Of a stretch of 64,000 bases of DNA, positions 25,251-51,105 are shown in pieces (position 1 is the stretch's first letter; each line of letters starts with the position of its first letter). Made by a program: the position numbers and the translations under genes. Origin of the DNA: a virus; IMG/VR virus record IMGVR_UViG_3300003323_001224, positions 1 through 64,000 of that record; one strand, written 5' to 3'. The notes beneath the pieces are model-generated. The model was not told the origin of the DNA, searched no databases, and saw nothing but the letters and a program-made list of their open reading frames with translations.

Positions 25251-27254
25251 ATGTATTATCCCATTGAGAACGGGACCGTGGAGGTCATACAGGACTATCC
25301 CTGTCAACTGCCCCCTGTTGGCTATGGAAAGAATAGGCTGACGGGCGAAGTGGAATACGTAGGTATTGTAAAGACCGATGCAAAGAAGGAAAAACAAAAA
25401 TGGAAAAGGTTTGAACTGCCGAAGGATTATGAGAAGAAAAAGAAACAGGAAGAGCAGCGCCAAAAGGAAGAACCAGATCATTATAATCCTGACCTGGAAA
25501 AGATCCGGACACAACATTGGAAATACCGCCTCTGCGGTTTTTGGTTATATATAAATGGCATACCGACCTACATTCCGCCGTCCTATTATATGTATCTGCA
25601 ATGGTGCCCGCTGGATATTGGTTACCCGGCTTATCGTGATACGGATAGGAGATTTTTTTATGTATGGGAATATTGCGTGGAAGATCCGCGCTGTGCTGGT
25701 CTGATTGATATTGAACGCCGACGGATGGGAAAAACCTATAAGAGCGGGTCTATATTACTAGACAGAACATCGATAGCCAGCCACCACCACGGCGGTATAC
25801 AAAGCAAGACAGGACAGGATGCCAAGGCGGTCTTTTTAAAGACAGTAGTTCCGTTTTTTAAAAAATACCCTGATTTCTTTCGGCCAGTATTTGATCAATC
25901 CAAGGGTATGTCACCGACCACTGAGCTAAGGTTTTTTCAGACCAGTATTAAAGGCAAACGCGCCAGCGAGATCGTCGATGCGCCTGAATTGGAATCATGG
26001 ATTGATTGGGGAACAGCAGAACCTTTTCATTATGACGGATCGAAGTTGAATACTTATGTGTGCGATGAATTTGGCAAAACCCTTGAATCGAGCGTTGTTG
26101 ACCGTTGGGATGTAGTCCGCTTCTGTTTAGATCAAGATGGAGATTGGTGCGGTAAAGCTCTCTTTACTTCTACAATAGAAGAGATGGAGAACGGCGGGGT
26201 AGATGCGAAAAAATTATGGGAAAATAGCAATCCCGCTGATAGAAATGAGAATGACAGAACCAAAACAGGACTATACAGATTTTTCTTACCTGCATACGAA
26301 ACGACATATTTTGATGAATATGGTATGCCAGAAGTTGAGAGAGCAAAAACTTTCTACCTGAATGAACGGGCGGGCTTGGTGAAGGACCCAAGACAGTTGT
26401 CATCTATCATTAGAAAGAATCCTTTCTCGATTGAAGAGGCATTTCGAATCGATGGAGATACGTGTTTATTCGATGCGATGAAATTAAATGATCAACTGGA
26501 TTTTTTGTCCTGGCGAGAGAACATAACAGAACGTGGAAACTTCGAATGGGAGAATGGAGAACGTTACACAAAAGTGGTTTGGAAGAAAAATGCGAACGGT
26601 AGATTTGAGATGCCTGTCGGTTTTCATTTCGACAATCCAAACGAAGTAAAAAAGATTAATGATCAGTTTATACCCCAGAATAATGTTCGGTTTGTATGCG
26701 GATGCGACCCTTTTAAATATGACCGCGTAAAAGATCAGCGCCGTTCCGATTGCGCGGCATTTGTATTCCAAAAATTCTCCCCAGGAGATGATACGTTTAA
26801 TGATTCGTTTGTTTGTAGATACAAACATAGGGCACCAACCACGGGCATGCAATATGATGATGTCATTAAGATGTGTTGGTATTTCGGCTGTCAGTGCCTT
26901 TTTGAATGCAATATCGATAACTGGAAAGAATATTTTAGGAATGCACATTGTTGGGCATTCCTGATGATCTTACCTGGAGAATCAGATCCGGGTCTTTACG
27001 CCGATGGAGGCGGTAAAACCCATCAGCTAATATGCGACTTGACTGAAGATTATATTGATAAGAATATTAAAAAGGTACTGTTTAAAGCGATGATTGAGGA
27101 TTGGTTGCTGTTTAAGTTGGACAAGACAACCGACTTCGATGAAACCATGGGCGCCGGCTATACATTGATTGCAGCTCGAAAGAAGCTCTACAGAAAAAAT
27201 GGAGATATCCAGCGTGACCTGACAGACTTTTTCAGAATTTATAAAGCAAGTTAA
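25251..27254 (+). CDS. terL: Terminase large subunit
   Basis: 667 residues, the usual length for a crAss-like TerL. The N-terminal region has G-I-P-T-Y-I-P-P-S-Y-Y-M-Y-L-Q-W and a Walker-A-like loop I-E-R-R-R-M-G-K-T-Y-K-S near residue 160; Walker B follows as Y-V-C-D-E-F-G near residue 278. A C-terminal nuclease half contains acidic clusters including F-V-C-G-C-D-P. It translocates DNA into proheads through the portal encoded just downstream. Codons 611-620 are matched by a CRISPR spacer in this same genome. Confidence 0.85.
   Translation: MYYPIENGTVEVIQDYPCQLPPVGYGKNRLTGEVEYVGIVKTDAKKEKQKWKRFELPKDYEKKKKQEEQRQKEEPDHYNPDLEKIRTQHWKYRLCGFWLYINGIPTYIPPSYYMYLQWCPLDIGYPAYRDTDRRFFYVWEYCVEDPRCAGLIDIERRRMGKTYKSGSILLDRTSIASHHHGGIQSKTGQDAKAVFLKTVVPFFKKYPDFFRPVFDQSKGMSPTTELRFFQTSIKGKRASEIVDAPELESWIDWGTAEPFHYDGSKLNTYVCDEFGKTLESSVVDRWDVVRFCLDQDGDWCGKALFTSTIEEMENGGVDAKKLWENSNPADRNENDRTKTGLYRFFLPAYETTYFDEYGMPEVERAKTFYLNERAGLVKDPRQLSSIIRKNPFSIEEAFRIDGDTCLFDAMKLNDQLDFLSWRENITERGNFEWENGERYTKVVWKKNANGRFEMPVGFHFDNPNEVKKINDQFIPQNNVRFVCGCDPFKYDRVKDQRRSDCAAFVFQKFSPGDDTFNDSFVCRYKHRAPTTGMQYDDVIKMCWYFGCQCLFECNIDNWKEYFRNAHCWAFLMILPGESDPGLYADGGGKTHQLICDLTEDYIDKNIKKVLFKAMIEDWLLFKLDKTTDFDETMGAGYTLIAARKKLYRKNGDIQRDLTDFFRIYKAS
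27081..27110 (+). other. Protospacer-like site in terL (28/30 to a spacer of this genome)
   Basis: Matches the crRNA-sense spacer at 45505-45476 at 28 of 30 positions; the two differences (TTT/TTC and GCG/GCA) are synonymous. The 5' flank ends TACTG and the 3' flank is TTTAAG. The crRNA is sense to terL mRNA, so it could pair only with the template DNA strand. Confidence 0.85.
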
Positions 27255-34075: not shown

Positions 34076-35320
34076 ATGGCAGATCTGTCACAATACATAT
34101 CTATTGCTGTAGTGTTGGACAAAAGCCAACCAAGCCCCATTTTTCGTATTGTTGATAATAGCAACTATCCGCTGGGTGTGGCGCAAACGATTGCGGGGAT
34201 CTTGAGTGTAACCCAGCCAGATAATATTACCATTCAGAATACGGATTTCTCACAGCCAGATATATACTGGAATACGAGTGCCCTCGTACCTGCTGATCTT
34301 GAGCTGAGATTAGATAATACGGGCAGCTTCCAAAGAGGAGGCAGCGGCTATCGTATTATTTATACAGTTCGGGCGCCTGGGTATGATGATACTATTTTGA
34401 CGAAAGTCTTTTCGCTTTCTTACACTCCTCCTGCCATTGTCATCACCAATAATTTTGATATATTCACGCCGGATCTATCCGTCCAAGATAGCACCAACTA
34501 CAACCAATTATCCCTAGATTTTATTTCCGTTGTCAGGGCGTGGTTAGCGAACATTATTTCTGTTGAAGGCACCACGCAAATCATCAGCGGGACCGATCAG
34601 GTGTTCGATCTCAATTATCTTGGGAGTTACTACGACTCCCAATATGATATTACCCTATCCATCACTCCTCAATGGCGCTTACAGGGGACATCCAATTTTG
34701 TTACGATCATCGATGAATTGGCCGATGACATTACGCTCTATGCGCAAATACCGCCTTCATTAGCTGACCTACAAGTAGACCTTGCGACACTCAAAAGTGA
34801 ACTTGATGCAGCAGTCTGTGATTGCAATTTATACCGCATATTGTTTGATCGATACAATTTAGCTAATTCCATCTATTCGCAATTGGTGGCAAGAGGACAG
34901 GCAGGGTCGTTGTCTGGATTGGATGTATATATATATCAACTGGAAAAGATTTTCAATAATAATGTTAACCCCACCTATGAAAACACGAATGAGATAATTC
35001 CGGCTTATGACTGGAATACCGGTGGCGGAGGCAGTGTGGCTTGGACCAATATAACCGGAAAGCCCAGTTCTATCACTGTTGAATGGGTCGTCGGGCAAAT
35101 GGGGTATCCTGGTGAAGGGGCGACTACTTACACGAATACTAATATGGTCAATGTACCCGTAAGTAGGATTTATGTTTTTCGAAACGGATTTCCGCAATTC
35201 TCCTCCAATCCGCCAGATGGAGACACCTATTACACTAAGAATCTTGCTGATAACTTCCTGACTTTTTCGGTAGCGTTGGGTCTAAACGAAAAAATTATCA
35301 TACTCATACTTCCTCTATAA
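34076..35320 (+). CDS. Putative tail/virion protein (414 aa)
   Basis: Beta-rich protein with an Ig-like N-terminal half, a short helical segment near residues 225-300 and a glycine-rich C-terminal beta domain of the type seen at the ends of tail proteins (W-T-N-I-T-G-K-P-S-S). It overlaps the fibre gene by one base (TAATG). Residues 293-302 are coded by a sequence matched at 27/30 positions by a CRISPR spacer of this same genome. Confidence 0.55.
   Translation: MADLSQYISIAVVLDKSQPSPIFRIVDNSNYPLGVAQTIAGILSVTQPDNITIQNTDFSQPDIYWNTSALVPADLELRLDNTGSFQRGGSGYRIIYTVRAPGYDDTILTKVFSLSYTPPAIVITNNFDIFTPDLSVQDSTNYNQLSLDFISVVRAWLANIISVEGTTQIISGTDQVFDLNYLGSYYDSQYDITLSITPQWRLQGTSNFVTIIDELADDITLYAQIPPSLADLQVDLATLKSELDAAVCDCNLYRILFDRYNLANSIYSQLVARGQAGSLSGLDVYIYQLEKIFNNNVNPTYENTNEIIPAYDWNTGGGGSVAWTNITGKPSSITVEWVVGQMGYPGEGATTYTNTNMVNVPVSRIYVFRNGFPQFSSNPPDGDTYYTKNLADNFLTFSVALGLNEKIIILILPL
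34953..34982 (+). other. Protospacer-like site in tail gene (27/30 to a spacer of this genome)
   Basis: Matches the crRNA-sense spacer at 44322-44293 at 27 of 30 positions. Of the three differences two are synonymous (AAT/AAC, GTT/GTA) and one changes Asn to Asp. The 5' flank ends GATTT. The crRNA is again sense to the gene. Confidence 0.85.
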
Positions 35321-41995: not shown

Positions 41996-43363
41996 TTAAA
42001 ATTTCCTTGAAAAATCATGCTCCATATTTCCTAGCATAAGGCCTAACCCATCCTTTAAATATTCTTCCGTCATGCTGGGTGTAGCATGCCCGCAGTATTG
42101 TTGGATAAGCGCAATAATAACCCCCCCCATGTACATATGGATGCAGCGGGTATGCTTCCAGGAATAATTAGTTAATTTAGGTGAAAATCCTCCAGGCTCC
42201 CGTACTTCATCCCTGAATTTGTCGCTAAAAAAAGCGCGATTCGTAGGGACCGGTCCCGGTGGCCCATCTATACCAAAGATGTAGTAGTGACCCGGACAAT
42301 CCTTTAAACCCATTCTGATAAAAAGTTCTATCAGTTCCGGTTCCATGTGAATGAATCTGCCGCGCCCCTTTTTTGCCTTTTCGTCGGGAATCATTAATTT
42401 ATTTCGACCCCAAAGAATATTTTCCACTTGTAAGTTACGTGTTTCCTTATCAGGCCGGGTGCCCGTGTAGTATATTACCTCACTAAAATCATGCAGGTAT
42501 TTTCCCCAATAAGGGACAGCCAGAATTGCCTTTTTCACAGCCGGTATGATACTATCTTCAAAAGGAGTATGCCTGATCTTAGTTCCCTTCCTCATCAACT
42601 CGACACCTTCAGCAGGGCTTTTGCTTATAATCTGTAGTTCGTCTTTACAATAATTAAAAAATGTAACAAACTTTTTTACCTTATCATTGTATGTCAAAGG
42701 CGCCCATTCCTTTTCCTCTCTCTTTGCCGCGAGAAAATCTTCCAGGTCATCTTGCGTGAAGGTCGCAATATCATCATACCACTGGCTTTCTTCCAATAGC
42801 GTATTTTTAGCTATATGCTTTTTCAACAAATTCAAGGGCACTGCATATGACTTTCGGTTCACTTCATCATAGTGTTGCAAAAAAAGCTCACTGGCCGCAT
42901 TCAAGGTAATGACCTGCTTTTTAGCTTTCTTTTCTGCCTCTTGTTCGGCTAAGATCCTATTATACTCGTCTATCTCATATTGGAATGGGCTGAAGCCATT
43001 CTCTAGCTCTTTAAGCATGGTGGCCAACAGCTGGAGCGCAAATTCAGGGTCCTGCGCGACTCCTTTGAAAACGCGAAAACGTTCCCATTCTCCCGGCGCA
43101 TTGTGTCGCTGTTGCAATACGGGCGGTAGCCCAGGAGGCACCTTAAAATAGTATTCAATATACTTTTTCTTCCCCTCAACGAGCTTGGGCGGTTTCCAGG
43201 TTATGTATTTTCCCGTTGACACTTTTTTGGCAATTTCCTTTGTCAAAAATACGAACTTTTTGATTTTCAGGTCTTTGTTTTTTTTAGGGTTGATCGCGTG
43301 TATCAACTCGGCATTTTCGACTTCCGGAGTATTGCTGATTTTCAGCGCTTTAGATTTTTGCAT
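41996..43363 (-). CDS. int: Tyrosine recombinase (phage integrase)
   Basis: 455 residues from the ATG at 43363; the open frame continues 27 codons upstream without better evidence. SAM-like N-terminal DNA-binding region at about 170-280, then the catalytic domain: Y-Y-T-G-T-R-P-D-K-E (box I Arg), Y-S-W-K-H-T-R-C-I-H in place of HxLRHT, C-G-H-A-T-P-S-M-T-E-E-Y-L with the His and nucleophile Tyr. It integrates and excises phage DNA. Located between tRNA-Met and the CRISPR array. Confidence 0.85.
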   Translation of the reverse strand: MQKSKALKISNTPEVENAELIHAINPKKNKDLKIKKFVFLTKEIAKKVSTGKYITWKPPKLVEGKKKYIEYYFKVPPGLPPVLQQRHNAPGEWERFRVFKGVAQDPEFALQLLATMLKELENGFSPFQYEIDEYNRILAEQEAEKKAKKQVITLNAASELFLQHYDEVNRKSYAVPLNLLKKHIAKNTLLEESQWYDDIATFTQDDLEDFLAAKREEKEWAPLTYNDKVKKFVTFFNYCKDELQIISKSPAEGVELMRKGTKIRHTPFEDSIIPAVKKAILAVPYWGKYLHDFSEVIYYTGTRPDKETRNLQVENILWGRNKLMIPDEKAKKGRGRFIHMEPELIELFIRMGLKDCPGHYYIFGIDGPPGPVPTNRAFFSDKFRDEVREPGGFSPKLTNYSWKHTRCIHMYMGGVIIALIQQYCGHATPSMTEEYLKDGLGLMLGNMEHDFSRKF

Positions 43364-43471
43364 GGTGATCTTTTTTAGGCGATTTTGGCAATTTTTTGAC
43401 AATTTTTCTGAGCCAAATCTACATCGAATTCGCCATTTCTGCAATTAAATCCGGAGGATTTTACAATTAGG

Positions 43472-45740
43472 GTTGTGAATTCCTTTTAAAATTGAACGCT
43501 CAGTAACTAGAATACAAACTGATGTTCAACCTTTACTGTTGTAATTACATTTACAAAAAGTGCATTCAACATTGATACATATTACGGCAAGCAACATGAA
43601 TGTTGTGACTTCCTTTTCAAACATATTATTTAGGGAGGGCAATAAAATAAGATGGATTATAAAGCATTATAGTCGTACTATCCTTAGTACGCTACTAAGC
43701 TTGCGTTGTGACTTCCTTGTTCAGTGGTTCAATATCTTGCGATCTTCTCTAAAAAACAACAGTCAATGAGTGGCCAAAACTCTGGCAGTTGTGAATTCCT
43801 TTCAAAATGGATTTTCCTACAACCCAAGCTGCGTAGGTAAACCTTCCTGTTGTTGTGATTTCCTTTTAAATAGATGCAGCCTACAATTCCCCTTCAACTA
43901 ACTTTCAAAGCCATATAACCATTTTCTCGTTGTGATTTCCTTTTAAATAGATGCAGCCTACAACTGGTGAGTAGGTTGTTGTTTCCGAGGAGCAGTTGTG
44001 ACTTCCTTTCAAAATTAAGCTTCCTACAGCCAACCTCCTCTATCCTTATATTCCTGAGTTGTTGTGACTTCCTTTCAAAATTGAGCTTTCTACAACAAAT
44101 GCTTAAAATTGGATTCCATAGCCATAGTTGTGAATTCCTTTCAAAATTAAGCTTCCTACTACTGGACAGGGCCTGGGGTAACAGGACATAGGTTGTGATT
44201 TCCTTTCAAAATTAAGCTTCCTACAAAGTATAGCTTTTTGGATATTTTTCACGGTAGTTGTGACTTCCTTTCAAAGGAAAGGTTCTTGCAACTTTCATAG
44301 GTGGGGTTTACATTGTTATCGAGTTGCGACTTCATTTCAAAAATTGAGGTTGATACAAATGGCGCCCCTGGACAAGTTCTTTGTCACCGTTGTGACTTCC
44401 TTTCGAAATCAAGCTTTCTACAACCCTAGCCCACATAGGCACGGGATACCATTGGTTGTGACTTCCTTTCGAAATTAAGCTTTCTACAACTCATTAATCC
44501 TGCCTCCGCTTATCGTTCCTGTTGTGAATTCATTTCAAAATTAAGCTTCCTACAACAATTATGGCAAATATATATAACGACTCCTAAGTTGTGACTTCCT
44601 TTCAAAATTAAGCTTCCTACAACCCCTGGCGATTAACGTGACGTCCCATTAATGTTGTGACTTCCTTTCAAAATTAAGCTTCCTACAACCAAACAATGTC
44701 ATACTTTTATAATTAACTCGTTGTGACTTCCATTCAAAATTAAGCTTCCTACAACTAAGTTCACGAACATCATATGAAGATAGGAGTTGTGACTTCCTTT
44801 CAAAATTAAGCTTCCTACAACCAGCCGACGGGCGGCTATTTAAATAGGTTTGTTGTGACTTCCTTTGAAAATAAAGCTTCCTACAACAGTCAGCCCAATT
44901 ATAAGAGATACACCTATGTTGTGACTTCCTTTAAAAATAAAGCCTCCTACAACTTACCAAAACCAGTGACAACAACGGGACGTGTTGTGACTTCCTTTCA
45001 AAATTAAGCTTCCTACAACAATGTTCGATCATTCCTTTTTTGAAAGTACGTTGTGACTTCCTTATAAGCTTCCTACAACCGGCGCATGGCATGGGTACGC
45101 AAATGAAGTGTTGTGACTTCCTTTCAAAATTAAGCCTCCTACAACACATCAGCAGCGCAGATACCGGCAATTGCCGTTGTGACTTCCTTTCAAAATTAAG
45201 CTCCCTACAACAAAAATGAAAAAGGTTTACAATGTCTCGTAGTTGTGACTTCCTTTCAAAATAAAGCTTCCTACTACGGTCGATGTTTTGATAAGTCATC
45301 ACTCATAGTTGTGACTTCCTTTGAAAATAAAGCTTCCTACAACTGTTGTGAGCAACTACGTATAGGCGTGCTCTGTTGCGACTTCCTTTAAAAATAACCT
45401 TCCTACAACAGCGTGCCCAAGATCAGCTACGACGCCAATGTTGTGACTTCCTTTCAAAATTAAGCTTCCTGCAACCAGCAACCAATCCTCAATCATTGCT
45501 TTGAAGTTGTGACTTCCTTTCAAAAATAAGCTTCCTACAACAGGACCTGATAACAGGCCACACGACATTACGTTGTGAATTCCTTTCAAAATTAAGCTTC
45601 CTACAACCGAGATCCTTTTCACGTCAAACGACCAGCAGGTTGTGAATTCCTTTCAAAATTAAGCTTCCTACAACAGGCCCAGTCCGCTCCCGTCCGTCAG
45701 CCGCGTTGTGAATTCCTTTCAAAATTAAGCTTCCTACAAC
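43472..45740 (-). CRISPR. CRISPR array: 34 repeats (36 nt) and 33 spacers (mostly 30 nt)
   Basis: Repeats begin every 66-67 bases over most of the block. Typical repeat on the plus strand: GTTGTGACTTCC...CTTCCTACAAC, with complementary GTTGT/ACAAC ends. Repeats 32-34 (45572-45740) are identical and carry GAATT in place of GACTT; those at 43472-43760 are badly eroded and irregularly spaced, so the leader is at the effector side and the crRNA reads leftward, ending GGAATTCACAAC. One repeat (45050) lacks 6 bases and another (45375) one. Two spacers match terL and the tail gene at 34076 of this genome. Confidence 0.97.
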
Positions 45741-45827: not shown

Positions 45828-45919
45828 ATAAATTAAAAAAAGGATTCAGGAGTGCTTCACGGCCTCCCGCTCAGGACGTACAACCGCCCCCTAATATTTT
45901 CAAAGAACTTGATGAGATT
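45828..45919 (-). ncRNA. Candidate tracrRNA
   Basis: Directly downstream of the effector stop codon. On the minus strand it contains a hairpin (ACGTCCT/AGGCCGT with one mismatch, 45879-45859) and then TGAATCCTTTT (45848-45838), which can pair with AAAGGAATTCA of the crRNA repeat with a single bulge. That stem-then-anti-repeat order resembles Cas12f tracrRNAs. The 5' and 3' ends are not defined. Inference from sequence only. Confidence 0.45.
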
Positions 45920-47014
45920 TTATTGTATCAAAAGTTCAATCCCAAACTTTTTGCATTTGTATTGTATCATGTTTATCAATCCATGATACGACCAGTTTCT
46001 TAACAAGAACTGATTTTTTGGATCTTTCGCTTCCTCCTCTTTCTCCTTCTGATCAACGAGAATCAATTTGCCGCATCGATATGCGACGCACAAATCTACC
46101 AATTTCTTACTATAACTGTGCAATTTGGTCTGCACATAATGTCTTTCTTCTTCAGAGAAACGTTCAGTGGCTTGCAGCTTCCGTTTTCTACCTTTGCCTC
46201 CTTTGTTGAACCGAGCGGCTCTTTGCGCTCTTCTTAGTCCCTCTTGTATACTAATTCTACCGTATAAGAACTCATCTTTGGTCCCGATGGATAATTCCTT
46301 TCTATTTACTTTGGCCACAATAGGTACATCCAGGCTGAGAGAAGCTGTCATAGCAACGTCCACATCCAAAACTACTGGTTTTTTTTCAATTTCAAAGACT
46401 GCTAATAAAAAAATTTTCTTTTTCTTCAACTGTATAGAACTATCGCAAAGAGAATGTATGCCTTTCAAAGCTTCCTCCATCAGCAACCGGTTATTGCTAA
46501 AGTCATAACCGAAATGCGTTCGAAACGGAATGCCCCACACTTCAAATTTGTAATTTTCGCTGTCTTCAGATAAAGACCAATTGCGCATAAGAATAGTTGG
46601 CAGCGGCATTGGAATGTCTCGGCGATAGGTTCGCAAAGCGCGCTTTCCGGAAAAATATTCCTTCCGCTCCTTGCTAATGTTTGCTGTGACGAGGTTGTTT
46701 ATCGCAGAAACACTTGCCATTGGCGCCTCGCCCTTGAACTTTTTTGAATTTACCTGGTAGGTTGTATTGGGACGGCTCGTAGTTAATATCCCCTCTTCCG
46801 CTTTAATTCTATCCTTCAATGTGATTTTGAAATCATCATGAAGATAAAAGAATTCGGAAATATTTTCCTGAAAATATTGATGGGTGGCCGTGTGGTTAGC
46901 AGCCCTAAATATTATTTCATTCCATTTGCGCAATTTTGCATAATTATCTTTAAACTCTTTTTTATCAGAATCTATAAATAATTGAATTTTTCTTGTTATG
47001 ATATTTTTAGCCAT
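45920..47014 (-). CDS. Miniature type V effector (Cas12f/TnpB-like), predicted nuclease-dead
   Basis: 364 residues. Family landmarks: H-F-G-Y-D-F-S-N-N-R near 167 and D-S-S-I-Q-L-K-K-K-K-I-F-L-L near 191 lead into the RuvC fold; L-S-I-G-T-K-D-E-F-L (241-250); K-G-G-K-G-R-K-R-K-L (271-280); L-R-N-W-S-Y-H-G-L-I-N-M-I-Q-Y-K near 338. In the usual family register the RuvC-I aspartate is Ser225 and the RuvC-II glutamate is Val320. The chain ends at I-E-L-L-I-Q, before the zinc finger and RuvC-III; neither other frame after the stop codon restores them. Expected activity is crRNA-guided DNA binding without cutting. Own promoter upstream; tracrRNA and array follow. Confidence 0.85.
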   Translation of the reverse strand: MAKNIITRKIQLFIDSDKKEFKDNYAKLRKWNEIIFRAANHTATHQYFQENISEFFYLHDDFKITLKDRIKAEEGILTTSRPNTTYQVNSKKFKGEAPMASVSAINNLVTANISKERKEYFSGKRALRTYRRDIPMPLPTILMRNWSLSEDSENYKFEVWGIPFRTHFGYDFSNNRLLMEEALKGIHSLCDSSIQLKKKKIFLLAVFEIEKKPVVLDVDVAMTASLSLDVPIVAKVNRKELSIGTKDEFLYGRISIQEGLRRAQRAARFNKGGKGRKRKLQATERFSEEERHYVQTKLHSYSKKLVDLCVAYRCGKLILVDQKEKEEEAKDPKNQFLLRNWSYHGLINMIQYKCKKFGIELLIQ

Positions 47015-47872: not shown

Positions 47873-47874
47873 AG

Positions 47875-47944
47875 GTGCGGTCGCCGGATTCGAACCGATC
47901 TTTAGGGTTATGAGCCCTATGTGCTGCCGTTACACTACCCCGCA
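47875..47944 (-). tRNA. tRNA-Met(CAT), slightly degenerate acceptor
   Basis: Anticodon stem TAGGG/CCCTA with loop CTCATAA (CAT), as in initiator-type tRNAs; D-arm GTGT/GCAC; T-loop TTCGAAT. The acceptor TGCGGGG pairs with GACCGCA except for its two innermost positions. Could be initiator, elongator or, if modified, Ile. Confidence 0.6.
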
Positions 47945-47953
47945 AAATTACAG

Positions 47954-48025
47954 TTCTCCCTACGGGATTCGAACCCGTGATGACGCCGTGAAAGGGCGCC
48001 GACTTAACCGCTTGTCGAAGGGAGC
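47954..48025 (-). tRNA. tRNA-Glu(TTC)
   Basis: Anticodon loop CTTTCAC on a GCGCC/GGCGT stem; T-arm CGGG-TTCGAAT-CCCG; acceptor GCTCCCT/AGGGAGA with one end mismatch; discriminator A. No CCA encoded. Confidence 0.8.
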
Positions 48026-48028
48026 GGG

Positions 48029-48122
48029 TGCGGAGGGGAGGATACGAGCCCCCACGAAATTAACCTAGAATAAATTTCCATTCATTAGACTGAATGCCGT
48101 CTACCAGTTCCGGCACCTCCGC
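48029..48122 (-). tRNA. Leu-type class II tRNA with apparent CTA anticodon (amber)
   Basis: Perfect acceptor GCGGAGG/CCTCCGC; D-stem CCG/CGG typical of leucine tRNAs; long variable arm with GAAATT/AATTTC; T-stem GGGGG/CCTCC. The anticodon stem ATTCA/TGAAT leaves a 6-base loop GTCTAA (or 8 bases with CATTC/GAATG). With T at position 33 the anticodon is CTA, which reads UAG. The irregular loop makes this uncertain. Confidence 0.6.
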
Positions 48123-48142
48123 AAATCCAATACTTTAAAATA

Positions 48143-48168
48143 GGGGCAGGTCGTATCCTGCCTGCCCC
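48143..48168. terminator. GC-rich hairpin in tRNA spacer
   Basis: GGGGCAGG / CCTGCCCC 8-bp stem. On the minus strand it is followed by TATTTTAAA, a weak terminator tail. Confidence 0.45.
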
Positions 48169-48281
48169 CAATCATTGTTACGGTTTACAAGACCGCTGCT
48201 GATAATGAGTCAGCTGGCAAATTGAAGTTTTCAAACAGCCTAATGCTCATGCTGTCGTCTGACGATCTACCATCTGATCTA
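48169..48281 (-). other. tRNA-like debris
   Basis: No gene. On the minus strand GCGGT-CTTGTAA-ACCGT (around 48180-48197) looks like an intact tRNA-Thr(TGT) anticodon arm, but no acceptor or regular T-arm surrounds it. Likely a decayed tRNA. Confidence 0.3.
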
Positions 48282-48315
48282 CCCCCCCTCCGGGGCGGCT
48301 GCTCCGGAGGGGGGG
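48282..48315. terminator. Very strong 12-bp GC hairpin
   Basis: Seven C then TCCGG, a 10-base loop, and the perfect complement ending in seven G. Both strands can fold it. It sits between tRNA-like fragments and would block readthrough from either side. Confidence 0.55.
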
Positions 48316-48380
48316 ACAGGACTCGAACCTGCGACTTTCAGATTACCGACTGCTTGACTTCAACAAGTGAAACTTAGCTT
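48316..48380 (-). other. tRNA-like 3' half (T-arm)
   Basis: On the minus strand GCAGG-TTCGAGT-CCTGT forms a perfect T-arm, and the C-run of the adjacent hairpin would be its acceptor strand, but no pairing 5' acceptor or clear anticodon arm is found. The remaining bases to 48458 show only AAGCTTT-type repeats. Confidence 0.3.
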
Positions 48381-48458
48381 AAAGCTTTTGACGCAATGCT
48401 TACGCTCATATCTAGGATCTGTTTAAGCTGATGCTAAAGCTAAAGCTTTGTCAAAGAT

Positions 48459-49250
48459 TTATTTTCCGTGAATATATCCAAAGATCTTTTCAGCTGTTAG
48501 GCCAGACTGTACAACTTCAACTTCATTGGCTTTTGCCAAAGCCTCCCGCACTGACTCCTTAAGTTTACTAAGCCTATACAACATTGCCGCTCTATCGCGA
48601 TGGGAAATCTCACCGGAAAAATGCTGTACTGTCTGCATCCCCAAAACGACTTGCGTATCCTTAGAAGCTATTTGAGGCTTATAACCAGATCCATCCTTTA
48701 GCAGTTGAATATTTGGATCGGGGAGAATGTATGATTCCTTCAAGGTAGTTCTATTGGCACTTTCGAAAACTTCTGTTTCCCAAATATTTTCTGACTTCAT
48801 CTCGCTGTCGTTGGATCGCACCCATTTGATATCATCTCTCCGGACAGGTAGCGTTTCGTACATTTTTGATAATTCTTTCGAATCCAAAAATGACCGCAAG
48901 CGCAAAAGTTCAAGTGTCGTATACTTCCCCCAATCTTCGCCATCAACAATAAGATTGGCGGTCGCTTTGCCGGTGGCATTTGTCGCCTCAATGGCAAACA
49001 AATTTGTTATGTGATCGCCGCAGGTGTCCAGAAAATATTTGAGATACTCCGGCACTGAATTTTGTACCGGTTTGAATCCCCTTTTCGAAGGTTCATCTAA
49101 GTAATCGCCTTCTGCTTGATAAGTTTGCCGCACTCCCACGAAAATTTGGGACTTATGCTTATCAGCAAAAGTGGCTACATATTCCTTCAGCAATGCATTG
49201 TACTGAGTACCTGAATGTTCTGTTTTGGCAAGCAAAGCATTTTGTTTCAT
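48459..49250 (-). CDS. Hypothetical phage protein (263 aa)
   Basis: Starts at the first ATG (49250). Helical N-terminus followed by a beta-rich centre (A-N-L-I-V-D-G-E-D-W-G-K-Y-T-T-L-E-L-L-R) and a helical C-terminus ending in a possible oligomerisation helix. Resembles a conserved phage protein family of unknown function that I cannot name with confidence. Flanked by tRNA-Lys. Confidence 0.55.
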   Translation of the reverse strand: MKQNALLAKTEHSGTQYNALLKEYVATFADKHKSQIFVGVRQTYQAEGDYLDEPSKRGFKPVQNSVPEYLKYFLDTCGDHITNLFAIEATNATGKATANLIVDGEDWGKYTTLELLRLRSFLDSKELSKMYETLPVRRDDIKWVRSNDSEMKSENIWETEVFESANRTTLKESYILPDPNIQLLKDGSGYKPQIASKDTQVVLGMQTVQHFSGEISHRDRAAMLYRLSKLKESVREALAKANEVEVVQSGLTAEKIFGYIHGK

Positions 49251-49268
49251 AATCCTTTTTTTTAATTG

Positions 49269-49341
49269 TTCCGCAACCACGGATCGAACGTGGCACTCCC
49301 TGCTTAAAAGGCAGGTGCTCTAACCACTGAGCTATTGCGGA
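49269..49341 (-). tRNA. tRNA-Lys(TTT)
   Basis: Acceptor TCCGCAA/TTGCGGA perfect; anticodon stem CTGCC with loop TTTTAA (TTT); T-arm CACG-TTCGATC-CGTG; discriminator A. Intact cloverleaf. Confidence 0.85.
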
Positions 49342-49581
49342 TTAATTCATCTTTTTCCTTTGCTGCATCCAAAAATCATTTACTTGTTTGAAAATATGCT
49401 CCCACCACGCTGTCAATTCATCTATATTGGGATTCGCATGGCTCTCTTTCATCTTATCGATTAATACCATGATACCACCCATAAAAGCCTCTTTCATCAT
49501 TTGCCATTGATCTGGTGGCGTAATGCTTTTAAACAATGATAAACGTTCCATGAAAGTTTCATATTCTTTGTCCAAATCCAT
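49342..49581 (-). CDS. Hypothetical protein (79 aa)
   Basis: Short acidic helical protein with several Met and Trp residues. Its stop abuts the tRNA-Lys gene. Not recognised. Confidence 0.45.
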   Translation of the reverse strand: MDLDKEYETFMERLSLFKSITPPDQWQMMKEAFMGGIMVLIDKMKESHANPNIDELTAWWEHIFKQVNDFWMQQRKKMN

Positions 49582-49586
49582 AACGA

Positions 49587-49853
49587 TTAATTCGATTTAG
49601 GTCGCTGCATTATTTTTCTCTCAATCGTCATGAATTCACTTCCCGAAAGCAACAAATCCGTTCCGTATTTCGTCCTTACCTTCATTCTCAGATCTCGCCC
49701 CGTTTTACTTTTTGGATCGGCGGCGCTGCCATCCAATTCGCACATTTCCACAAAATCGGTCTCCTCTCCTGACCATTCATGTCCAGGTAGCACAAGTATT
49801 TTTCGCCCTTGAAAGAAAGCGTTCAGGTCACCAATAGTTTTAAATTTTTTCAT
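49587..49853 (-). CDS. Hypothetical protein (88 aa)
   Basis: Beta-rich small protein (K-I-L-V-L-P-G-H-E-W then K-V-R-T-K-Y-G-T-D-L-L), ending in a basic tail. Five bases separate it from the next gene downstream. Function unknown. Confidence 0.5.
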   Translation of the reverse strand: MKKFKTIGDLNAFFQGRKILVLPGHEWSGEETDFVEMCELDGSAADPKSKTGRDLRMKVRTKYGTDLLLSGSEFMTIERKIMQRPKSN

Positions 49854-49860
49854 TGCGTAT

Positions 49861-50070
49861 TCATTTATCCAAAAACGGTATCCCTGACTTTATCTCCATA
49901 TGTATATGGTATTGCAATTGTGTTTTGGCTGAATTAATGATCTTGCCCGCCAACTGGCTAATGTGGCCAATCTCTTTCACATTTACCTGACCCTTTCTAG
50001 CTTGCTCATAATACGACAATAGATCTTCTCTCAGATCGGTGATACCAATAATTTTTTCAGGGTGTTCCAT
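49861..50070 (-). CDS. Hypothetical protein (69 aa)
   Basis: Helical, with D-L-R-E-D-L-L-S-Y-Y-E-Q-A-R-K-G-Q-V near the start, a pattern common in small phage regulatory or accessory proteins. Overlaps the upstream gene by 14 bases. Confidence 0.5.
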   Translation of the reverse strand: MEHPEKIIGITDLREDLLSYYEQARKGQVNVKEIGHISQLAGKIINSAKTQLQYHIHMEIKSGIPFLDK

Positions 50071-50284
50071 TTTTCAAAGTCCACTTTAATGCTTGAAGGA
50101 TAATTATACAATCAACAAGATCGGTTTGTTTCATTAAAATTCTTCTATAATATGGCCTATCAGCTGTTGGTATCTTCCATGCACATATCATCCATGCAAC
50201 ATGCATAGCTCGTTGCCTATTTATGTTTCGTTCACAATGGTTGGAACAAATAGAACAGCCACATAAAAGTTGGTCATTACCCAT
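50057..50284 (-). CDS. Cysteine-rich small protein (75 aa)
   Basis: N-terminal C-G-C-S-I-C-S-N-H-C cluster suggests one zinc site; the rest is basic and helical. It starts two bases before tRNA-Gln and overlaps the next gene. No family recognised. Confidence 0.45.
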   Translation of the reverse strand: MGNDQLLCGCSICSNHCERNINRQRAMHVAWMICAWKIPTADRPYYRRILMKQTDLVDCIIILQALKWTLKNGTP

Positions 50285-50285
50285 G

Positions 50286-50357
50286 CTCCCGCACCTGGAT
50301 TCGAACCAGGGACCTAGAGATCCAAATTCTCTTATTCTACCGCTGAACTATGCGGGG
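50286..50357 (-). tRNA. tRNA-Gln(TTG)
   Basis: Anticodon stem AGAGA/TCTCT with loop ATTTGGA (TTG); acceptor CCCGCA/TGCGGG plus a terminal C-A mismatch; T-arm CTGG-TTCGAAT-CCAG; discriminator G. Confidence 0.8.
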
Positions 50358-50627
50358 TTATAGCATTCGTATTTTACTTAACTTTTCTCTATATAGCTTC
50401 TCCCTATTCACCCAAAATTCCTTTGGTACCTTCGTAACTTCTTCCAGCTTGCCTGCAAGATCTTGCGTGATCTTTTTATCCCCTTTTAATAGCCTCCACG
50501 TCATGTTGCCCGATAGTCCTAATCTTTCTGCCAACATTCTCACATTCCATCCTCTATCTTCCATTATCTCTTTTAGCGTATCCCCAGGGCAGGATAATAA
50601 TTCGAGTTCAATCTTTTTGTTGCTCAT
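50358..50627 (-). CDS. HigA-like XRE antitoxin/regulator (89 aa)
   Basis: XRE helix-turn-helix in HigA style: P-G-D-T-L-K-E-I-M-E-D-R-G-W-N-V-R-M-L-A-E-R-L-G-L, N-M-T-W-R-L-L-K-G-D, then V-P-K-E-F-W-V-N-R-E-K-L-Y at the end. No HigB toxin gene is adjacent, so it may be an orphan antitoxin or a phage regulator. Overlaps the upstream gene by 20 bases. Confidence 0.75.
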   Translation of the reverse strand: MSNKKIELELLSCPGDTLKEIMEDRGWNVRMLAERLGLSGNMTWRLLKGDKKITQDLAGKLEEVTKVPKEFWVNREKLYREKLSKIRML

Positions 50628-50889
50628 GTGCTTCCAGTTTATATTCCTGCGGCCATTTATCTCCTGTCCATAAAATAGGCGAAGTCAAGGCTAATTGTTG
50701 TAAATTAAATTCTTCTTGAATTTCTGCAATGTCATCACCTCCTATAGCATGTCCACGATCACCATACGATGTTGGCTTACCTTCTTCATCGTAATATACT
50801 GTCCTTATCTCCAGGTAGACCGAAGATTCGATACCAGAAAAATTTTGTTCAATAGCCATTACGCGATAATTCCAAGTCATAATTCTCAT
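50608..50889 (-). CDS. Conserved small protein, MTWNYR type (93 aa)
   Basis: Recognisable small family: T-W-N-Y-R-V-M near the start, then E-I-R-T-V-Y-Y-D-E-E-G-K-P-T-S-Y and an I-G-G-D-D-I-A-E-I segment. Found in many bacteria and phages, function unknown. ATG at 50889 or three codons later. Confidence 0.65.
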   Translation of the reverse strand: MRIMTWNYRVMAIEQNFSGIESSVYLEIRTVYYDEEGKPTSYGDRGHAIGGDDIAEIQEEFNLQQLALTSPILWTGDKWPQEYKLEAHEQQKD

Positions 50890-50897
50890 TTTAATAA

Positions 50898-50994
50898 AGC
50901 GAGTTGCCCATCACGCGCACCTGGGCCAGGTGTTGAACCGAAGTCTCGCCAGTCCGCCGGAAAGGAGAGATAATCGTGCGCTTATTGACTCGCT
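50898..50994 (-). ncRNA. Structured non-coding RNA candidate
   Basis: Nested long-range pairing: AGCGAGT/ACTCGCT (7 bp, 97 bases apart), then GCGCAC/GTGCGC (6 bp) inside, then CACCTGG/CCAGGTG-type and TCTC/GAGA elements. It is not a normal tRNA although it sits between tRNA-Gln and tRNA-Phe. Could be a processed small RNA or an aberrant tRNA-like element. Confidence 0.4.
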
Positions 50995-51033
50995 CAGGAT
51001 TTACCCCTTTATAAATCCTACACCGTAAGAAGG

Positions 51034-51105
51034 TGGCACCGGGCAGAGTCGAACTGCCTACGCCGGGATTTTCGGTCCCGCGCTCTACCGCTGAGCTACG
51101 ATGCC
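51034..51105 (-). tRNA. tRNA-Phe(GAA)
   Basis: Acceptor GGCATCG/CGGTGCC with one G-T; anticodon stem CGGGA/TCCCG; loop CCGAAAA gives GAA, with unusual C at position 33; T-arm GGCAG-TTCGACT-CTGCC; discriminator A. Confidence 0.75.

Follow-up and report, generated by a model that had tools for sequence, protein, structure and literature searches.

A nuclease-dead Cas12f with its own guide RNA and CRISPR array on an integrase-bearing phage, a candidate for silencing related phages without cutting DNA

What could a virus gain from a miniature Cas12 protein that has lost the residues with which its relatives cut DNA? The question is raised by a 64,000-nucleotide (nt) stretch, here called the window, that comprises positions 1 to 64,000 of a 76,638-bp IMG/VR record (IMGVR_UViG_3300003323_001224; G000) and encodes a protein of 364 amino acids (aa), hereafter dCas12f (45920..47014, minus strand), beside an array of clustered regularly interspaced short palindromic repeats (CRISPR). 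An earlier note, made from the letters of the window alone, had described this protein as a virus-borne Cas12f/TnpB-family member without any of the three RuvC catalytic positions, and had proposed that it is maintained by selection for binding DNA under the guidance of CRISPR RNAs (crRNAs). Open reading frame (ORF), family and array all proved to be as described, and genes for a terminase large subunit, a portal protein and an integrase mark the record as viral; the locus is a type V-F-derived, nuclease-dead CRISPR system on an integrase-bearing phage. Judging from sequence, we favor with moderate confidence a function in RNA-guided DNA binding without cutting that silences genes of related phages.

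Both sequence and fold identify the protein as a Cas12f. Its match to the PADLOC Cas12f profile is strong (E 8.7e-46), while TnpB profiles match weakly (NCBIfam guided_TnpB, E 6e-14, below the cut-off of that model). The top phmmer match in the PDB is 9n9c, a "nuclease-deactivated Cas12f" (E 1.4e-91, 44% identity) identical in sequence to our Allomuricauda taeanensis homologue L026, with active Cas12f ranking behind it (E 1e-34). A predicted structure of the window protein (predicted local distance difference test score 79, predicted template-modelling (TM) score 0.58) likewise finds 9n9c and 9n9m, both nuclease-deactivated, as its best Foldseek matches, at global TM-scores of 0.55-0.58 that are modest because the model is a free multi-domain chain and the PDB structures are bound to RNA. 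Alignment to the intact phage Cas12f proteins L093, L094 and L096 puts Ser225 at the RuvC-I Asp and Val320 at the RuvC-II Glu, the very residue numbers that the note had given, and the chain stops ahead of both the zinc finger and the RuvC-III Asp; the D-E-D catalytic site of type V-F is therefore missing, its third position being absent altogether. An assembly error or frameshift, which would have undermined the claim, can be discarded as the source of the short C-terminus, since full-length dead homologues from viruses and chromosomes stop at the same place.

These homologues came from two scans of viral sequences (19 viral proteins in the tree, including that of the window) and from a genome scan that returned 22 chromosomal loci, to which a later sample added 8, making about 30 Bacteroidota chromosomal homologues in all. 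Scanning the viral contigs with one protein as query recovered no relatives, which alignment queries did detect, and the phage and plasmid collections contained distant matches only. The survey of related phages suggested by the note revealed a loss that is shared throughout and only partly uniform: every readable dead homologue, viral or chromosomal, lacks the RuvC-II Glu and ends at a common point, and the RuvC-I Asp position is occupied by S, T, F, Y or E. The window protein has the catalytic losses and the C-terminal end that define this dCas12f clade. Among individual members, L034 has a broken reading frame, and the sigma-factor-linked chromosomal homologue L119, from the later sample, retains an Asp at RuvC-I (EADLSL) yet is truncated likewise, so that it is apparently an intermediate or a reversion.

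A branch with 100/100 support divides the dead proteins from the outgroup L093-L096, phage-borne Cas12f proteins that are intact, measure 439-459 aa and have both the D-E-D site and the zinc finger. On the evidence of alignment and tree, the catalytic losses were inherited throughout the clade and did not arise separately in the window phage.

The components of a guide are retained next to the gene. Directly 3′ of the dCas12f stop, two conserved hairpins form the core of a trans-activating CRISPR RNA (tracrRNA; 45840..45893, minus strand), an element common to the viral loci that adds to the guide parts known from the earlier note. Over 17 copies, 99.5% of pair cells are standard and 9 of 11 pairs show compensatory change, the covariation score being 0.75 against 0.19 for shuffled data; shifting the pairing by 1-3 columns abolishes the signal. 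This covariance-type family support is joined by a model (R2) from which the window sequence was left out and of which the window tracrRNA is the sole match in 82.6 kb (E 5e-7), and the first model (R1) detects the element 3′ of dCas12f in most Flavobacteriaceae sigma loci. The CRISPR array (43788..45740, minus strand) lies on the same strand as dCas12f, running from 45740 down to 43788, and consists of 30 recognisable 36-nt repeats (consensus GTTGTAGGAAGCTTAATTTTGAAAGGAAGTCACAAC) separated by 29 spacers, mostly of 30 nt; tracrRNA and array, the combination expected of type V-F, are thus both present. Moreover, across 14 loci, repeats pair better overall with their own tracrRNA than with swapped ones (2 of 10,000 permutations).

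The arrangement of these parts differs among phages. In several of them (L006, L010, L012, L013 and L099), tracrRNA and array occur together as two or three separate units, some of which lie directly upstream of a gene start. The protein nearest to that of the window, L099 (G020:12514-14133), is accompanied by arrays whose repeat is quite different, whose spacers measure 37-38 nt and in which one spacer occurs twice. Arrays also lie 3′ of the intact Cas12f genes of L093 and L094, the former with a tracrRNA match as well.

Could the locus nevertheless be a decaying remnant of an active Cas12f? Strongly degenerate distal repeats (43472..43637, minus strand; 21-26 of 36 positions match) would fit such a history, which we regard as the least probable of the explanations weighed here in view of the intact reading frame, the family-wide truncation point, the covarying tracrRNA and the ratio of non-synonymous to synonymous substitution rates (dN/dS), which is 0.02-0.06 in those pairs of phage dCas12f genes near enough to measure. 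Sequence comparison of these relatives hence shows them to be under purifying selection, one further pair, with four changes in total, giving an uninformative 0.24. The claim of selection rather than decay consequently stands on tracrRNA covariation, the relatives' dN/dS and the conserved truncation point; the three losses, which the note had counted as independent evidence, no longer serve as such, being ancestral to the clade.

Clues to what the system is aimed at come from the spacers, 4 of 29 of which have a counterpart elsewhere in the phage genome, beyond the array itself, with no match at that level for shuffled or reversed spacers. Spacer 4 corresponds to a site (27081..27110, plus strand) within the terminase large subunit gene (25251..27254, plus strand; phrog_6681, E 8e-90), with 2 mismatches of 30 that are both synonymous, and spacer 22 to a site (34953..34982, plus strand; 3 mismatches of 30) in an ORF of 414 aa without assigned function in the structural gene region (34076-35320). 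The site of spacer 14 spans the end of a 203-aa ORF (73264-73293, 2 mismatches), and that of spacer 20 is intergenic (71809, 6 mismatches). In relatives, a spacer of G009 equals the phage's own capsid-like gene over 29/29 positions, and one of G019 corresponds, at 3 mismatches, to an exonuclease-like gene in the closely related G018; both gene names were read from sequence by us, and the threshold of this search was looser, so that one reversed control also passed it. The base 5′ of the target site is G in 4 of the 5 best matches. The synonymous mismatches suggest, as far as sequence comparison goes, that spacers were taken from related phages. Since nothing is cut, the phage would survive guides that match its own DNA closely or exactly.

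The same matches could mean that the guides hold down the phage's own late genes in lysogeny (terminase and structural genes here, capsid in G009). This is unlikely, although it ranks first among the alternatives: a dead nuclease permits self-targeting, the G009 match is perfect and those in the window phage have 2-3 mismatches, but the mismatches within window genes are mostly synonymous, as expected if spacers come from relatives, and self-matches are limited to 4 of 29 spacers. The remaining 25, without known target, could instead control host genes, and a spacer directed at the host has been reported for a phage dCas14 (PMC7162821); we consider this improbable, no host match having been found in a non-exhaustive search of hosts. 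Even less credence attaches to a decoy that sequesters host crRNAs or tracrRNA and so acts as an anti-CRISPR, as proposed for an inactivated phage Cas9 with tracrRNA (PMC11656645), because the locus has a large array of its own with diverse spacers, some of which match phage genes.

In the interference that we favor, dCas12f would bind the tracrRNA encoded directly 3′ of its gene and use crRNAs processed from the adjacent array and paired with that tracrRNA; the complex would then bind matching DNA without cleaving it, as the loss of all three catalytic positions implies. Its spacers would stem at least partly from genes of related phages, as a few in the window and two in relatives indicate, and the outcome would be that competing relatives have essential genes silenced, either in co-infection or in lysogeny, much as Cas12m acts on plasmids or phages. 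Binding-only interference has a precedent in Cas12m (PMC10442227, PMC11013384), and phage arrays aimed at other phages have been reported (PMC7162821). No Cas1 was detected in G000 or in 20 other viral records, so that this is not a complete adaptive CRISPR system and new spacers would need host machinery.

Several observations weigh against this interpretation. No spacer was found to match another phage exactly (two spacer patterns were compared with viral_contigs, and the array with the phage collection), 25 of 29 have no known target, and the self-matches could equally be read as self-regulation. In addition, the pairing of the window's own tracrRNA and anti-repeat is not distinctive, ranking 7 of 14 in a simple duplex calculation, and the dN/dS values come from pairs of relatives, the nearest relative of the window protein being, at 51% identity, too far to measure.

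A different function is suggested by the chromosomal branch of the family. According to 2025 work, chromosomal dCas12f paired with a sigma factor reportedly activates transcription in an RNA-guided manner. A sigma-factor gene lies directly upstream of dCas12f in 22/22 chromosomal loci of the first set (mostly 258-270 aa) and in 8/8 from an even draw of 396 genomes across the Bacteroidota, in two of which it is split over frames. By the Sigma70_r2 profile and by similarity to the partner sigma factor, viral dead loci have none except L078, a sigma-linked contig catalogued as viral that falls inside the sigma clade; as many viral records are fragments, this absence can be taken as firm within the flanks that were read but not beyond them. 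G000 itself contains no match to Sigma70_r2 and so lacks the sigma gene of a sigma-dCas12f system. A weak region-4 match at 65988-66065, considered as a sigma factor elsewhere in the phage, belongs to a 123-aa helix-turn-helix (HTH) protein without region 2 and was rejected. In several sigma-linked loci of Sphingobacterium (for example L021:5900-6900), the sigma gene is preceded by a CRISPR array, so that sigma systems are not all array-free.

In the tree, all 22 sigma-linked rows group together in a single clade (support 97/94). Its sister comprises the window protein and L099, which share 51% identity, with 100/99 support for the joint group; the place of the window protein is unchanged in a second tree without long-branch rows. 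This kinship, together with a best PDB match (9n9c, L026) that belongs to the sigma-linked clade, speaks for a phage dCas12f that would enlist a host sigma factor in trans to initiate transcription at the sites chosen by its guides. We judge such activation unlikely, and slightly more so than self-control, given that viral dead records other than L078 lack the sigma gene so constant on chromosomes and that the best spacer matches fall within genes or over a gene's end and none upstream, the intergenic one being that of spacer 20 with its 6 mismatches.

The silencing of related phages being retained as the function of choice, the tree invites a further, tentative proposal, to which we give not quite even weight: dead Cas12f may have arisen once, in phages, as binding-only CRISPR against related phages, with the bacterial sigma-dCas12f systems taken from such a lineage and the window and L099 as its closest members found. 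Because the root is set only by distant intact Cas12f proteins, the direction of transfer is one that we infer.

These results show that dead Cas12f is no one-off mutation: it forms an established family in viruses, equipped with guide RNAs and arrays of its own. They also place phage proteins beside the root of the sigma-dCas12f transcription systems of bacteria; the role of dCas12f before sigma-factor acquisition and natural CRISPR interference between phages without DNA cutting thereby become testable. As far as the literature searched shows, both a clade-wide viral dead Cas12f family with a covarying tracrRNA and the position of phage proteins as sister to sigma-dCas12f systems are new, with overlap with sigma-dCas12f papers possible; a proposed repressing phage 'dCas14' (PMC7162821) and solved structures of the sigma-linked family were already known.

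Elsewhere on the record, a phage integrase gene adjoins the array (41996..43444, minus strand; phrog_1, E 4e-25), and homologues of the terminase occur in Flavobacterium and Cellulophaga phages; the host is probably a member of the Bacteroidota. Six of the ten phage tRNA genes lie at 47874-51105, at most 4 kb upstream of dCas12f, and one of these six has an unusual two-base anticodon call. An 89-aa HTH protein (window 50358-50627) resembles plasmid antitoxins (PHROG 1381), its partner toxin not being recognised. In other phages (L006-L015 and L080-L084; 9 distinct viral locus groups), a conserved 61-92 aa protein (YMADLLERN...LKQMNNRSRL...), two members of which have no PHROGs match, is encoded within ~1 kb of dCas12f or its arrays and is possibly a partner of phage dCas12f, or reflects shared synteny; it is absent from the window and can be dismissed as a partner there.

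How, then, does the window system compare with those already known? With the chromosomal sigma-dCas12f systems (9n9c and 9n9m; Allomuricauda/Flagellimonas taeanensis) it shares S at RuvC-I and M/V or similar at RuvC-II, the C-terminal end, 44% identity and a homologous RNA scaffold 3′ of the gene, but it is viral, has a long array and lacks a sigma gene; Flavobacteriaceae sigma loci have no array adjoining the gene, whereas several Sphingobacterium ones do. The 'dCas14' of huge phages, proposed as a repressor in 2020 (PMC7162821), is likewise a miniature Cas12 carried by phages and missing a catalytic residue; compared by description, one residue is lost there and all three here, where the members of a defined clade share their truncation point. 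Cas12m of type V-M also binds its target without cleavage and acts to silence plasmids or phages (PMC10442227, PMC11013384), but is larger (596 aa in Cas12m2), has a non-canonical HDD site and uses a single crRNA. The window protein has a far weaker Foldseek match to Cas12m, its best matches being Cas12f, and its locus includes a tracrRNA, which sets it apart from type V-M. TldR is a TnpB-derived protein that represses host flagellin and is not known to have a CRISPR array. Both it and the window protein are phage-borne dead RuvC proteins, TldR being a dead TnpB carried by prophages that acts as an RNA-guided repressor (PMC13418256), but instead of an adjacent single guide the window has an array, and its protein is related to Cas12f. 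Finally, active Cas12f of type V-F has the same fold and tracrRNA architecture (L093 is matched by R1), together with the D-E-D site and zinc finger that the window protein has lost.
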